From Candidatus Desulfofervidus auxilii (GTDB lineage Bacteria; Desulfobacterota; Desulfofervidia; Desulfofervidales; Desulfofervidaceae): 55,615 nt of DNA. The stretch covers positions 2,124,607-2,180,221 of the forward strand of contig NZ_CP013015.1 of assembly GCF_001577525.1 (NCBI RefSeq), given 5' to 3'. A program made the translations under genes and the position numbers. Shown here in pieces: positions 13,455 to 45,539 of the stretch (positions are counted from its first letter, which is position 1; each line of letters opens with the position of its first letter). The notes beneath the pieces are model-generated. The model did not search any database, was not told where the DNA came from, and saw only the letters and a program-made list of their open reading frames with translations.

Positions 13455-13546
13455 CACTAGCGATTGAACTAACCTGTAGGCATGGAGCGCCCCGCCAGAG
13501 GCGGACAGGCAGCAGTTTAGCAGTCAGGTGAAGCACTTTGTTAGCC
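13455..13546 (-). repeat. Probable attC-like cassette recombination site (degenerate distal half)
   Basis: Read on the minus strand, the site starts with GGCTAACAAAGTGCTTCACC. This parallels GGTTAACAAAAGGGTCCACC of the clear attC at 40832-40901. As in that site, the stop codon of the preceding gene (13541-13543) lies inside the core box. An apical hairpin CCGCC-AGA-GGCGG occurs in the middle. The far half (CAGGTTAGTTCAATCGC) pairs only partly. I therefore call it probable. Confidence 0.55.
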
Positions 13547-13909
13547 GTCAATATTCCATTTCCGATTACCAATAGTTACGAGAGGTATAAGACAAGGAAT
13601 TATCCAAAGCAAAGACATCCAAGTTAAGCCAACATTTTTCAGCTCATCATAGAGATATATAGCCAATGCAACAGAAATAAAAAATAATGAGTAAATTGGC
13701 AACATTAGCTTCCAATATTTTGTATTTGGGTGTTTCCAGGGAGCAAGCATAAAGATTAAACTGACCGCAAATATAAATAAAATTATTCCCATCATTCCAT
13801 TGCTAATTTTACCTTGAACTATCCAAACAGCAGATAGTAGAATTAACCAGATAAATCCTCCAAGCCATCCACCAATCCATCCAATTTTTTCACCTTTACG
13901 GTTCATCAC
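13541..13909 (-). CDS. Orphan small membrane protein (cassette gene)
   Basis: This 122-residue protein has four hydrophobic segments (about 13-31, 37-56, 66-86 and 94-113) with short loops, consistent with an inner-membrane protein. I do not recognise the family. Its ATG follows an attC-like boundary by about ten bases and its TAA overlaps the next attC-like core, the compact layout of an integron gene cassette. No catalytic or ligand-binding motif is visible. Confidence 0.6.
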   Translation of the reverse strand: MMNRKGEKIGWIGGWLGGFIWLILLSAVWIVQGKISNGMMGIILFIFAVSLIFMLAPWKHPNTKYWKLMLPIYSLFFISVALAIYLYDELKNVGLTWMSLLWIIPCLIPLVTIGNRKWNIDG

Positions 13910-13917
13910 ATTTCTTC

Positions 13918-13971
13918 GCCTAAAAAGCTGAGCTGGCAGTGAAGCGAGTCAGCACCAACATAGTGTTATGT
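13918..13971 (-). repeat. Possible attC-like site (weak)
   Basis: On the minus strand the site runs from ACATAAC, through a short imperfect stem (GCTGA / TCAGC), to TTTTAGGC. The stop codon of the preceding gene (13949-13951) falls inside it, as at the two better sites. The right-hand core has lost its GTT and internal pairing is poor, so this is a suggestion from position more than from sequence. Confidence 0.35.
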
Positions 13972-14789
13972 GAGACTTTTGTTTTAAATATTTTCTTAGA
14001 ATTGCATGACTTCCCTCTTCGGAATCAATCTGAACACACATTTTTTTACCCTGTGTCCAGTGAAAACATTGCAAACCCATAGGATTGTATGTTCCGTCTT
14101 CGTTCGCTGTTATTACTGCTTGACAGCCATGAAGGATGAGCCACTCAAGATCCTTGGTTCCCAATTGCCTGTATATAGTATATTCTACTGGATCATCCCA
14201 GTGCAAACGCCAATGGTACCCAGTGCCTTGGCCATAGTGGTACAACCCGCCAAGAAGACATGAGGTATACTTGTAATATAAGTAAATCACGGAACCAGGG
14301 TATATATTACCCATTGTGACACAAAGAGGGAATGTATAATAGCAGTATGGTGTCGTATGCCCCCATCCTTATCTTATCTAAGTAGCCACTATGATGTGTC
14401 CACGTCATGCCATCATAGGTATAATAGCCAAACATTTCATGGGGATGCGGTGGAACAATCATATTGTTGTGGCCATAGAAAAAACCAAATCAAATTCATC
14501 CCATCCTTTTAGATCATCACCAGGAATCGGAAGTACGGTTAGTATATTCACTTCTTCGTTTCGATATCTTCTCGATTCATCAGCGTCTGCATAAGGTGCA
14601 CCTGAACCGCTAGTCATAACTGGGATCCACATAGACACTGTATTTCCAAAAATCTTCATACCTACAAAGAGAGTACACCCCAAGTTCCCTCTCCTTACAG
14701 CCCGAAAGAGCAATTCCTATCAACCCTAGCAAAATCAGGAAGATACACTTTCGCGACCAACGTATAATTCTAAGATTACAAATATACAT
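13949..14789 (-). pseudogene. Frameshifted lipoprotein gene, possibly DUF6345-like
   Basis: An ATG at 14789 with AGGAGG upstream opens a lipoprotein signal (FLILLGLIGIALSGC). The frame then breaks. Reading on in other frames gives one continuous-looking protein: GMKIFGNTVSMWIPVMTSGS, then KGWDEFDLVF, then FYGHNNMIVPPHPHEMFGYY, then YHYGQGTGYHWRLHWDD and DLEWLILHGCQAV. At least three frameshifts are needed. One is explained by a T run at 14470-14475 that is one base short. The GWDEFDLVFFYGH and DLEWLILHGCQ motifs recall DUF6345 proteins. The gene lies in the cassette block and looks recently broken. Confidence 0.55.
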
Positions 14790-41689: not shown

Positions 41690-43021
41690 ATGAGGGAAGC
41701 ATTTAAAAAGTGGACACTGTTTTGGATAGTAATGGTGTGCGTGCTTTTTGGGAAAGTAGATTATTTAGAGGCAAATTTTACCAAATACAAAAATGGAACC
41801 AGTGTTTGGGATGGGAAAATTAAGTTTGGAGGAAGGATTAGATTTAGACAGGAGATAAAAGACGGCTATTATATTCCCAATGGACAAAAGAAGGTGCATG
41901 ATGACCTCTCCCTCTTACAAACCAGAATTTATGTGGAATTTATGCCCACAGAAGAAATAGGATTTCATCTAATGTTTGAAGATGCACGGGATTTTACAGA
42001 ACCTCACCCTTACAAACCACTTGTTCCTTACGCCTATGACACTGCCTTTGATGTGCAACAGGCGTATGTCTTTTATCAGCCTAAAAATAGCTCATTTTCT
42101 TTCTGGGCAGGAAGAAGAGAAGTATTCTATTTAAAACACAGACTCATTGGGACTACCATTGGCTGGGGAAATAAAGTCATTACGTATGACGGAGCCATGG
42201 TAACCTTTGAGGATAAAAAATTTAAGTTGGACCTTGCCTATTTAAACTGGGTAAGACCTCAGCACACAGGCAGGTTATTTGAGCATACCTGGTTTGGTGA
42301 ACCTGCCAACACCCTTGTAGGCTGGCTTACTTTAAAAGATTTATTTTCAGGAGCTAGTCTTGATATATACACCATTTATGACGACCGCAGAAATGGAGAA
42401 GATATTTACACCATAGGCCTTAGAGCCTATGGAAAGATAGGAAGTTCTATTGGTTATGATATAAATGGCAGCCTTCAGCTGGGAGATGCATTGGTAGGGA
42501 GTGAATTCCAAGACAGAATAGCAGGGGCCTTTTATTTAGACACATGGTATGCCTTTGATATGCCATGGAAACCCACTATAGGTCTGGAATACTTTATGGC
42601 CACTGGGGATAGCCATCCGGGTAATGGAGACTATCATACCTTTGACCAGCTCTATGCTACTCCTCATTATTCATACGGATATATGGATTTGATGGGTTGG
42701 CAGAATATGCATGACCTTAATCTTAAGACCTGGATAAAACCGGTTAAGGGTTTAAAATGTGGGGCTGCATTTCATACCTTTTGGTTATTTGCCAATGAGG
42801 ACAACTGGTATAATGCCTATAAAAAAGTTCAGAGGTTTGGCCAAGAGGATGCAAGTCACTATATAGGAAACGAGCTTGATTTTATCTTCTTTTATGACTT
42901 TGCAAAATATTTTACTTTAGTAGGTACATATTCGCATTTCTTTGCCGGAAAATTTGTAGCCCAAACAGGCCAGAGTAGTGATGCTGACTTTTTCTCCATG
43001 GAAATACGCTTTGAATTTTAA
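41690..43021 (+). CDS. Outer-membrane beta-barrel porin (alginate-export-like)
   Basis: This 443-residue protein has a signal peptide (FWIVMVCVLFGKVDYLEA). The barrel is rich in aromatic residues and ends with Phe (FFSMEIRFEF). Segments FGGRIRFRQEIKDGYYIP and FDVQQAYVFYQPKNSSFSFW with AGRREVFYLKHRLIGTTIGW resemble the alginate-export family of large porins common in Desulfobacterota. The RBS AAAGGAGG lies nine bases upstream. Its stop codon is 3 bp before the tRNA at 43025, so the barrel gene and the tRNA share a transcript. The substrate is unknown; a selenium or sulfur oxyanion is a guess from the downstream genes. Confidence 0.75.
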   Translation: MREAFKKWTLFWIVMVCVLFGKVDYLEANFTKYKNGTSVWDGKIKFGGRIRFRQEIKDGYYIPNGQKKVHDDLSLLQTRIYVEFMPTEEIGFHLMFEDARDFTEPHPYKPLVPYAYDTAFDVQQAYVFYQPKNSSFSFWAGRREVFYLKHRLIGTTIGWGNKVITYDGAMVTFEDKKFKLDLAYLNWVRPQHTGRLFEHTWFGEPANTLVGWLTLKDLFSGASLDIYTIYDDRRNGEDIYTIGLRAYGKIGSSIGYDINGSLQLGDALVGSEFQDRIAGAFYLDTWYAFDMPWKPTIGLEYFMATGDSHPGNGDYHTFDQLYATPHYSYGYMDLMGWQNMHDLNLKTWIKPVKGLKCGAAFHTFWLFANEDNWYNAYKKVQRFGQEDASHYIGNELDFIFFYDFAKYFTLVGTYSHFFAGKFVAQTGQSSDADFFSMEIRFEF

Positions 43022-43024
43022 AAT

Positions 43025-43121
43025 GGCCGGATCAGGGAGCCGGTGCTTCCCACGGGCTGCAAACCCGTTGAGGATGCCTAAAAAGCATCCTGTTCGGTTC
43101 AACTCCGAAATCCGGCCTCCA
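43025..43121 (+). tRNA. tRNA-Sec-shaped tRNA with GCA (Cys) anticodon
   Basis: The fold is fully readable. The acceptor GGCCGGAT / ATCCGGCC is 8 perfect pairs (43025-43032, 43110-43117). The D stem is six pairs with one bulged T and loop CGGT (43035-43051). The anticodon stem ACGGG / CCCGT has loop CTGCAAA, giving anticodon GCA (43059-43061). The variable arm AGGATGC / GCATCCT is 7 bp (43071-43091). The T stem TTCGG / CCGAA has loop TTCAACT. The discriminator is T and CCA is encoded. The 8+5 acceptor/T pairs, long D stem and long variable arm are those of bacterial tRNA-Sec. The anticodon and U73 are cysteine identity elements. Standard finders may miss it or call it Sec. Confidence 0.92.
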
Positions 43122-43122
43122 A

Positions 43123-43671
43123 ATGACAATGTTTAAACAGATTAAACAGAAACTATTGAAAAAAAGGGCTTCTCCTCAAACAAAGGGGTTAATTTTAGTG
43201 GAAGATGTGGCTACGGCTATGGCCATAGAGAAACTTTTGCAAGGGCATGGTTTTAGTGTTAAAGGAGTTGCTCCGCCGCCCCATTTGCGTAAGGGGTGTG
43301 ATTTGGCAGTAGAGTTTGATTTAGTAGAACAAATGGCCATTGAGAGGATTTTAAATAAAACTAATGTTTCCTATGAAATTTCTCCTTTAAACACTAATGA
43401 ACCCCCTTTAGAAATTACCAAAATAAAAGAAATAAATGGCTATATTTTAGTGCGAGCTGCAAATATGAAAGTTACTTTTGATAAAAACACAGCTATGATT
43501 GTCAATGTTTCAGGGGGTGGGTGCCCTGATGTCCCATTTTTGGCCCAAAATCTTATGGGTAAACGGTTAGAAGAGGCAATGGTGGTTATGGAAAAAGGCC
43601 ATTCCCTCTGTGCCTATATGTTAAAGAGGGCAATTGAAAAAGGCCTTGAGTTATTAAATGAAAATCACTAA
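43123..43671 (+). CDS. DUF3343-like protein with C-terminal Cys-containing domain
   Basis: The 182 residues start 1 nt after the tRNA CCA end; a second ATG is at 43129. No Shine-Dalgarno is possible because the upstream bases are the tRNA. Residues ~20-88 look like DUF3343 (ILVEDVATAMAIEKLLQGHG, PPPHLRKGCDLAVEF), a small domain often found beside YedE/YedF-type selenium genes. The second half (~100-178) has FDKNTAMIVNVSGGGCPDVP and GHSLCAYMLKRAIEKGLELL, with two Cys that could carry sulfur or selenium. It probably passes or senses persulfide/selenide; this is inference. Confidence 0.65.
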   Translation: MTMFKQIKQKLLKKRASPQTKGLILVEDVATAMAIEKLLQGHGFSVKGVAPPPHLRKGCDLAVEFDLVEQMAIERILNKTNVSYEISPLNTNEPPLEITKIKEINGYILVRAANMKVTFDKNTAMIVNVSGGGCPDVPFLAQNLMGKRLEEAMVVMEKGHSLCAYMLKRAIEKGLELLNENH

Positions 43672-43676
43672 GAGTT

Positions 43677-44522
43677 ATGCTGGTCATTGGCACTATTCCC
43701 ATTGAACTAAAAGAAGTTGTTACTGGGTCAGTAATTTTTAAAGAGGGAAAGCTGTGTGCTGGCCCGGTTTCTCTAGAACCAAACCTGGGCACCTCTGCCC
43801 TTCTGGCTGCTTCTTATATGACCCTTTCTGCCTTAAAACAGGCCCCACCCCAGGCCATTCTTATTGGTGATAAGGGTGAAGGTAAGGGCACAAAGAAGCT
43901 CTTTGCCTGGTTAAAGAAAAACGATTTAAACAAACAAACCGTTATTTGCGGTCATTACATGATGCCTTATGTGGAGGAATTTAAACAGATATTTCCCAAA
44001 CTTTCCCAGGCTGCTCAATATATAGTAGCTGATGCAGGCATGATGTATCTAGCCAAGGGTTCCGGTTTGGCAAGGAAAGTGGATGTATTTACACCAGATG
44101 CAGGAGAGTTGGCCTTTTTGGCAGATAAAAATGCCACTCATCCTGCCTATGTCAAACGGATTTTGTTTGAGATGGATACAGATAATATGGAAGACTTAAT
44201 AAAAGAAGCCTATGTTGCAAAAAATCTTCCTGAATTTGCACTTGTGAAGGGAAGAGAAGATTTGATTGTCAAAAATGGAAAAATTATTACTTCTGTCTCT
44301 TCACCCATGGTTGAGGCTATGGAGGCTATTGGTGGTACAGGTGATGCCTTGGTAGGAATCCTATCCGCTCTTATTACAGCAGGCTTTTCTCTGGATAAAG
44401 CGTCTATTTTGGCAGCCAAGATTAACCGCATCGCTGGAAATTTAGCTCAACCTACACCAGCAACAACTATTTCAGAAATTATAAAATTTATTCCAAAGGC
44501 CATAAAGGAGGTGATAAAATGA
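43677..44522 (+). CDS. Ribokinase-like / NAD(P)HX-dehydratase-like protein
   Basis: This 281-residue protein resembles the ribokinase-like fold of the C-terminal domain of NAD(P)H-hydrate dehydratase. It has AQYIVADAGMMYLA and VDVFTPDAGELAFL, and the nucleotide/anion-hole signature AIGGTGDALVGILSALITAG. The usual N-terminal epimerase domain is absent. It begins 5 bp after the DUF3343 gene and overlaps the first YedE half by 4 bp (ATGA), so it is an integral part of the operon. What it phosphorylates or dehydrates is unknown; it could make a phosphate donor or repair a cofactor. Confidence 0.65.
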   Translation: MLVIGTIPIELKEVVTGSVIFKEGKLCAGPVSLEPNLGTSALLAASYMTLSALKQAPPQAILIGDKGEGKGTKKLFAWLKKNDLNKQTVICGHYMMPYVEEFKQIFPKLSQAAQYIVADAGMMYLAKGSGLARKVDVFTPDAGELAFLADKNATHPAYVKRILFEMDTDNMEDLIKEAYVAKNLPEFALVKGREDLIVKNGKIITSVSSPMVEAMEAIGGTGDALVGILSALITAGFSLDKASILAAKINRIAGNLAQPTPATTISEIIKFIPKAIKEVIK

Positions 44523-45010
44523 GATGGACAGCGGCAAAAGTAGGATTTCTTGTTGGTCTTGGGGCAGCTATAGGACAGGCATTTTTTAAAATCATTCCTC
44601 CTCCAGCCTATGGAGTTTGTATTGCCTGTCATGTGCGAGATTTGGACAATTGGATTATTTTAAAAATTTATCCTAGTTTTTATAGTGGTAAATTCATTGG
44701 TGGGCCTGTTTCTGCCCATTTCCCACTGTTGACTATTGTGGGTGTGGTTATTGGTGCCTTCTTGGCAGCAAAAGTCAACAAAGAATTTCAGTGGAGGACT
44801 ATGCGGGTGTGGTGGCAAAGGCCTCATGTAGAATTTGTCTGGGGTATGTTAGTTTGTATAGGTGCGTTAATGATGGGAGGATGTCCAATTCGCACTACTT
44901 TAAAAGCTGCCTATTTAGACCTTACCGCCATGTCTGGATTGTTTTCTATCTTTTTAGGCGTCTTTTTAGGCTGTAAGGTAATCAAACACTTGGTAAAACT
45001 TGGAGGGTAA
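44519..45010 (+). CDS. YedE/YeeE-type sulfur/selenium transporter, first half
   Basis: This 163-residue membrane protein corresponds to the N-terminal half of YeeE/YedE transporters. It has an initial membrane segment, a YGVCIACHVRDLDNW motif, and MMGGCPIRTTLKAAYLDL with the pore-lining Cys. Family members carry thiosulfate or selenium species across the inner membrane through Cys relays. CIACH looks like a haem-c motif but is a conserved family segment here, and the protein lacks an export signal. It overlaps the second half by 11 bp. Together the two would make one full transporter. Confidence 0.8.
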   Translation: MRWTAAKVGFLVGLGAAIGQAFFKIIPPPAYGVCIACHVRDLDNWIILKIYPSFYSGKFIGGPVSAHFPLLTIVGVVIGAFLAAKVNKEFQWRTMRVWWQRPHVEFVWGMLVCIGALMMGGCPIRTTLKAAYLDLTAMSGLFSIFLGVFLGCKVIKHLVKLGG

Positions 45011-45539
45011 AATGCCTGTAATTTATAGTTTATTTCTGGGCTTTCTATTGGGTTATTTAGGTCAACGCGCACGGCTTTGTTTTATTGGGGGAATGCGGGA
45101 TTATGTGCTGGTCAAAGATACCTATTTAATTAAAGGCCTGTTTGGCTTTTTTATAGGGGCATTTTTAGGCTTTATTCTATTCCATTATATCATTCCTTGT
45201 GCCACTTTAAAGACCTTTCCTTGGTTTATAAATGGTGCTGGGGTATTTTTGAAAAAATGGAAGACTATGGGCATTCAGGCTACACCTAATCCTGCCTTAC
45301 CGGTGCCAGGAGATCCCATTACTTGGTCGCCTATAGTGATTTACCACTTATTCCTGGCTCTTGTTGGAGGTGCAATGGTGGGATTTTTTTCAGTGTTAGC
45401 AGGAGGTTGTCCTTTCAGACAGCATGTTATGGCCGCTGAAGGTAGCCGCAGTGCCTTAAGTTATATTGTAGGTTTTGCTATAGGTGCCGTTATTTTTCAC
45501 AAACTGTTAGTGCCCATAATCAAGGTGCTGCTTAAATAG
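45000..45539 (+). CDS. YedE/YeeE-type sulfur/selenium transporter, second half
   Basis: This 179-residue membrane protein corresponds to the C-terminal half of YedE. It begins FLLGYLGQRARLCFIGGMRD, where the Cys-containing repeat resembles the first half, and has VLAGGCPFRQHVMAAEGSRS near the end. Spans are near 3-20, 45-65, 115-140 and 150-172. The split from the first half is clean, with an overlap and both frames intact. It is therefore a two-subunit transporter and not a frameshift. The TusA/YedF-like gene starts 9 bp downstream. Confidence 0.8.
   Translation: MEGKMPVIYSLFLGFLLGYLGQRARLCFIGGMRDYVLVKDTYLIKGLFGFFIGAFLGFILFHYIIPCATLKTFPWFINGAGVFLKKWKTMGIQATPNPALPVPGDPITWSPIVIYHLFLALVGGAMVGFFSVLAGGCPFRQHVMAAEGSRSALSYIVGFAIGAVIFHKLLVPIIKVLLK

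Follow-up and report, generated by a model that had tools for sequence, protein, structure and literature searches.

The tRNA gene described here most likely encodes a real, intact and working member of the known tRNASec-like tRNACys class, a judgement drawn from its sequence and those of its relatives. It lies in a window of 55,615 nucleotides, the whole stretch of DNA that was analysed (positions 2124607-2180221 of the one-contig, 2.54-Mb assembly of Candidatus Desulfofervidus auxilii). The tRNA body measures 94 nt (43025-43118) and is followed by an encoded CCA. Its minimum-energy fold has an 8-bp acceptor stem, a 6-bp D stem, a 5-bp anticodon stem, a 7-bp variable arm and a 5-bp T stem (Table 1), at -45 kcal/mol (z = -4.45); none of 200 shuffled sequences was equally stable. 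ARAGORN called the gene tRNA-Cys(gca). The tRNA-Sec model of Rfam (RF01852) matched it with 66.1 bits (E 2.6e-11), and this was the sole tRNA-Sec match, and the only Rfam match above threshold, across the window. Fold, ARAGORN and Rfam thus confirm the position, 8/5 fold, arms, anticodon, discriminator base and CCA given by an earlier, sequence-only reading. The fold is Sec-like, as in the general tRNASec-like tRNACys class, and the CysRS identity elements U73 and GCA are both present in place of the UCA anticodon and G73 of tRNA-Sec. The 4-bp T stem with bulged A51a of the 8/4 subtype is absent; since the fold gives five base pairs and no bulge, the earlier assignment to 8/5, and not to the described 8/4 form, holds.

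Table 1. Features of the tRNA and of its neighbouring genes (positions in the window)
Feature	Positions	Strand	Basis
Alginate_exp-type porin-like gene, ends 3 nt before tRNA	41690..43021	+	PF13372
tRNASec-like tRNA-Cys(GCA), U73 at 43118, CCA 43119-43121	43025..43121	+	fold, ARAGORN, Rfam, covariation
Acceptor 5' strand, 8 bp, partner 43110-43117	43025..43032	+	fold
Sec-like D arm, 6-bp stem, 4-nt loop CGGU	43035..43050	+	fold; relatives' D stem 100% paired
Anticodon GCA	43059..43061	+	sequence, ARAGORN, fold
Variable arm, 7 bp	43071..43091	+	fold
T stem, 5 bp, and loop	43093..43109	+	fold
DUF3343 / putative Se/S carrier protein, 182 aa, ATG 1 nt after CCA	43123..43671	+	PF11823
Carbohydrate-kinase-like, YjeF C-domain-like	43677..44522	+	PF01256
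YedE-like putative Se/S transporter, half 1	44519..45010	+	PF04143; TIGR04112 below cut-off
YedE-like putative Se/S transporter, half 2	45000..45539	+	PF04143; TIGR04112 below cut-off
TusA / YedF N-domain protein, 72 aa	45549..45767	+	PF01206; TIGR03527 below cut-off

The host genome also contains a separate tRNA-Sec with a UCA anticodon and a normal tRNA-Cys (765968-766039), and the window tRNA is therefore a second, Sec-shaped cysteine tRNA, as had been proposed. A single SelB scored above the family cut-off, and its gene is located away from the window tRNA; canonical tRNA-Sec and SelB, which accompany tRNACys of this class, are thus both encoded in the same genome. No match to SelA (TIGR00474) was found in the assembly, an absence that is not firm because the assembly holds masked N stretches, one of at least 1069 bases. 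A relative from the same family has SelA beside selB.

Extended upstream, the reading frame of the host's SelD runs through a UGA codon in its catalytic motif (ASG-U-AAKLSP), and a hairpin lies 3' of this UGA. SelD adjoins a second CysRS, which is fused behind a cysteine-synthase domain; the genome also encodes one stand-alone CysRS of 486 aa. The fusion (L198:1441-3762, about 301940-304261 of the genome, minus strand, with the PALP domain in front) is a candidate charging enzyme for the window tRNA. Such cysteine synthase-CysRS fusions were present in 12 of the 14 other genomes checked (G001, G003, G034, G062, G092, G122, G182, G187, G247, G268, G308 and G382); G001 has the fusion, yet a GCA Sec-like tRNA was not found there. 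One ORF of the window that reads through a TGA inside it (13541-14368, minus strand) had no family match and probably arose by chance.

Approximately two dozen relatives were gathered from the Desulfobacterota, Planctomycetota and Acidobacteriota, a wider range than the deltaproteobacteria in which the family had earlier been placed. When 395 genomes of the host phylum were searched with a pattern consisting of the GCA anticodon loop, a long gap and the T loop, 31 had matches, the majority of which were genuine on inspection. The relatives fall into two types. Type A, which includes the window tRNA, has a GGCCGG-like acceptor; a type-A pattern scan of named genomes returned 20 stretches, and carriers include Planctomycetota, Blastocatellia, Chloracidobacterium, Desulfopila, Desulfarculus, Desulfarculaceae and one member of the Syntrophaceae. 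In type B the acceptor is GGGGGC-like and the 4-bp T stem carries a bulged A; tRNA genes of this type fit the 8/4 selC* as PMC7609411 describes it and frequently adjoin a second selB. The 8/4 bulged form is also found in two genomes of the host's own family (G003 and G004). One planctomycete (G419; L175/L184) has a Sec-like GCA tRNA with a GGGCGGA-like acceptor, apparently without U73. The Syntrophaceae contig MNZP01000175 carries two type-A tRNAs (L126 and L127), each just 5' of an acetyl-CoA synthase beta-like gene.

Because the search patterns fixed the anticodon and the T loop, conservation of these two elements carries no evidential weight; U73, the acceptor, the D arm and pairing were left unconstrained. 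U73 was kept among the type-A relatives, with ends located by a script that gave a small bonus for T at this position. Covariation was assessed in 22 type-A sequences whose 3' branch measures 12 nt. Thirteen pairs had changed in both partners, compared with 5.7 in shuffles, and each of the four helices (acceptor, D, anticodon and T) showed compensatory changes. In the same alignment 93.9% of cells were paired, as opposed to 33-57% when the alignment was slid. The D stem was 100% paired across relatives, and pair 49:65 occurred as U-A, C-G and G-C. A lack of covariation, which the sequence-only reading had offered as a way of overturning its claim, is not what these sequences display.

The geometry of the branch proved to be less uniform. 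Neither 8/5 nor 8/4 suits the whole of type A, since 12 of the 22 sequences lack pair 7:66 and 11 lack pair 8:65, and one universal structure of either kind was rejected; drawn as 8/4, the branch fitted these sequences slightly more poorly than in the alternative drawing. Most of type A has a 12-nt 3' branch. The full 13-nt branch (8/5) was seen only in the window tRNA and in the Desulfarculus relative, which share one extra base on the 3' strand. The earlier description of 8/5 as the true Sec geometry is therefore right for the window tRNA, but it is atypical of the nearest relatives. A short tree placed types A and B in one group (0.95) that leaves out tRNA-Sec, tRNA-Ser and tRNA-Cys; this tree is only indicative because it rests on about 95 sites. 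The GGCCGG-acceptor subgroup, which includes the window tRNA, differs from the 8/4 bulged type of the published description.

All 27 type-A genomes tested had at least one of SelB, SelA and tRNA-Sec. This association with the selenocysteine machinery is supportive though weak, because selB is present in 157 of 246 Planctomycetota genomes (64%). Strict dependence on SelB was rejected as a diagnostic feature, since five carriers have no SelB match: three of 17 carrier genomes and, in addition, the Planctomycetota carriers G542 and G557. SelA is present in four of them and tRNA-Sec in the remaining one (G410). SelD contained a UGA in all five SelD genes met (the host's own and those at L116, L125, L132 and L096), a count taken over loci fetched around these tRNAs, without a control sample. 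At the latter four loci, no more than about 6 kb separates the tRNA from the UGA-containing SelD.

Taken together, we think it reasonably probable that the window tRNA carries cysteine, is delivered by SelB to UGA and replaces selenocysteine when Sec-tRNA is scarce, with SelD as a likely target. The steps inferred for the window tRNA, from charging through binding to SelB and decoding of UGA to a role at SelD, are as follows. CysRS, recognizing U73 and GCA, would charge the tRNA with cysteine. SelB would then bring the Cys-tRNA to SECIS-marked UGA codons; it is preferred over EF-Tu because of the Sec-like D arm, the long variable arm and the 13-bp acceptor/T branch. Cysteine would stand in for selenocysteine at these codons whenever Sec-tRNA ran short. 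The UGA-containing SelD would be a likely important target: its UGA occupies the catalytic position, and a cysteine version would therefore be expected to restart selenophosphate synthesis, and with it the selenium pathway, without any selenocysteine. The idea of SelD as the natural first target may already stand in the primary papers (Mukai 2017, Vargas-Rodriguez 2018).

This prediction has published parallels. According to PMC11415595, a Sec-like GCA tRNACys of Desulfotomaculum nigrificans is charged by CysRS and delivered by SelB, not EF-Tu, so that UGA is read as cysteine, and PMC9437257 relays a proposal in which selC* and CysRS* serve selenoprotein synthesis under scarce selenium. The sequence-only reading had mentioned cysteine insertion via SelB as one option, beside SepCysS-like charging and a selenium/sulfur relay; by analogy, the published CysRS/SelB/UGA mechanism is a better lead than the latter two, and SelB was rightly named as an option. 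Two observations argue against a role for SelB. Unlike the 8/4 type, the window tRNA is not adjoined by a second, dedicated SelB, and in most close relatives the branch is 12 nt long and often mismatched at 7:66, as opposed to the 13 bp typical of SelB substrates.

The shorter branch of the relatives also permits a 7/5 drawing, which is of ordinary length, and would then suit, together with the GCA anticodon and U73, an extra cysteine elongator of odd shape that CysRS charges and EF-Tu carries to UGC and UGU codons. We consider such an elongator unlikely. The genome already has a normal tRNA-Cys, the conserved Sec-like D arm (which covaries) and long variable arm are needless for EF-Tu, and PMC11415595 reports a structurally similar tRNA that does not use EF-Tu.

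The genes around the tRNA raise another possibility. No selB* was found 3' of the tRNA in the window, where the neighbours are the DUF3343, kinase, YedE-half and TusA genes. The YedE-like transporter is split here (44519-45539) into two overlapping half-genes instead of forming one gene. In G182 and at L127, YedE, DUF3343 and kinase genes immediately precede the tRNA. At L125 the tRNA is flanked by YedF, SelD, YedE and cysteine desulfurase genes; L116 and L132 have YedF and SelD near the tRNA, and in G062 and G308 its flanking genes encode a double-cubane reductase and an activase. Such neighbours are mostly missing around the planctomycete and acidobacterial members, and the linkage is a descriptive listing of loci, without a null expectation. 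PMC5322559 names YedE, YedF, DUF3343, Sec lyase, SelD, a 2-hydroxyglutaryl-CoA dehydratase subunit and its activase as selenium-cluster partners. A porin matching ExtI, the porin of a selenite/tellurite reduction operon, is encoded near the G182 type-A tRNA (L087:10194-11528). The tight packing with the DUF3343, kinase, YedE and TusA/YedF genes, and the similar genes beside the tRNA in several relatives, would fit a Cys-tRNA with a role other than in translation, donating cysteine or sulfur for the clustered Se/S carrier and transport genes. This is improbable in our view: many relatives are without these neighbours, and conservation of the whole cloverleaf suggests ribosomal use.

Two further proposals turn on SelA. 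The lineage may have lost SelA while keeping SelB, tRNA-Sec and UGA-containing genes, in which case the tRNA would be the main decoder of SECIS-marked UGA and would insert cysteine permanently; we give this little credence. SelA could instead convert the Cys-tRNA to Sec-tRNA(GCA), for insertion of selenocysteine at selected cysteine codons. The D arm resembles that of the host's own tRNA-Sec (6-bp stem, 4-nt loop), and PMC11415595 mentions a GCA tRNASec of Aeromonas salmonicida that inserts selenocysteine at UGC; nevertheless, U73 suits CysRS and SelA was not found in the host's partly masked assembly, and we regard this conversion as very improbable. A decayed selC copy, which the sequence-only reading had allowed for and to which the position near tRNA-Sec in the short tree might point, is ruled out practically beyond doubt by the full pairing, the encoded CCA, the retention of U73, covariation over distant phyla and the independent, intact selC in the genome.

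With this tRNA, the small set of known tRNAs through which a single codon can acquire two meanings gains a distinct subgroup that occurs in at least three phyla. The neighbouring genes and the UGA-containing SelD suggest what it may be for: a selenoprotein needed for selenocysteine synthesis could be made without selenocysteine. Further, the 12-nt and 13-nt branches within one subgroup offer natural variants for probing what SelB needs of its tRNA.

Compared with tRNA-Sec (RF01852), the window tRNA has the same 8/5 branch, 6-bp D stem with 4-nt loop and long variable arm; tRNA-Sec has UCA and G73, whereas the window tRNA has GCA and U73. The selC* tRNACys (Mukai et al. 2017), described in PMC7609411 from anaerobes including Proteobacteria and Thermodesulfobacteria, shares with it the Sec-like fold, long variable arm, U73, GCA anticodon and a true selC alongside. 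In that description, however, selC* is 8/4 with an unpaired A51a bulge, while the window tRNA is 8/5, bulge-free and has a GGCCGG acceptor; likewise, selC* is followed by selB* in two deltaproteobacterial groups (Syntrophobacterales/Desulfobacterales) and the window tRNA by Se/S genes. Allo-tRNAs (Mukai et al. 2017), as presented in PMC7609411, resemble it in their long variable arm and unusual acceptor/T branch, but their identity elements are those for serine and their branches are 8/4 or 9/3. The tRNACys of D. nigrificans (Vargas-Rodriguez et al. 2018, as cited in PMC11415595) is like the window tRNA in its GCA anticodon, Sec-like shape and proposed use of SelB. This likeness is one of published description. 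The UGA-recoding tRNACys of D. nigrificans is called tRNA-ReC.
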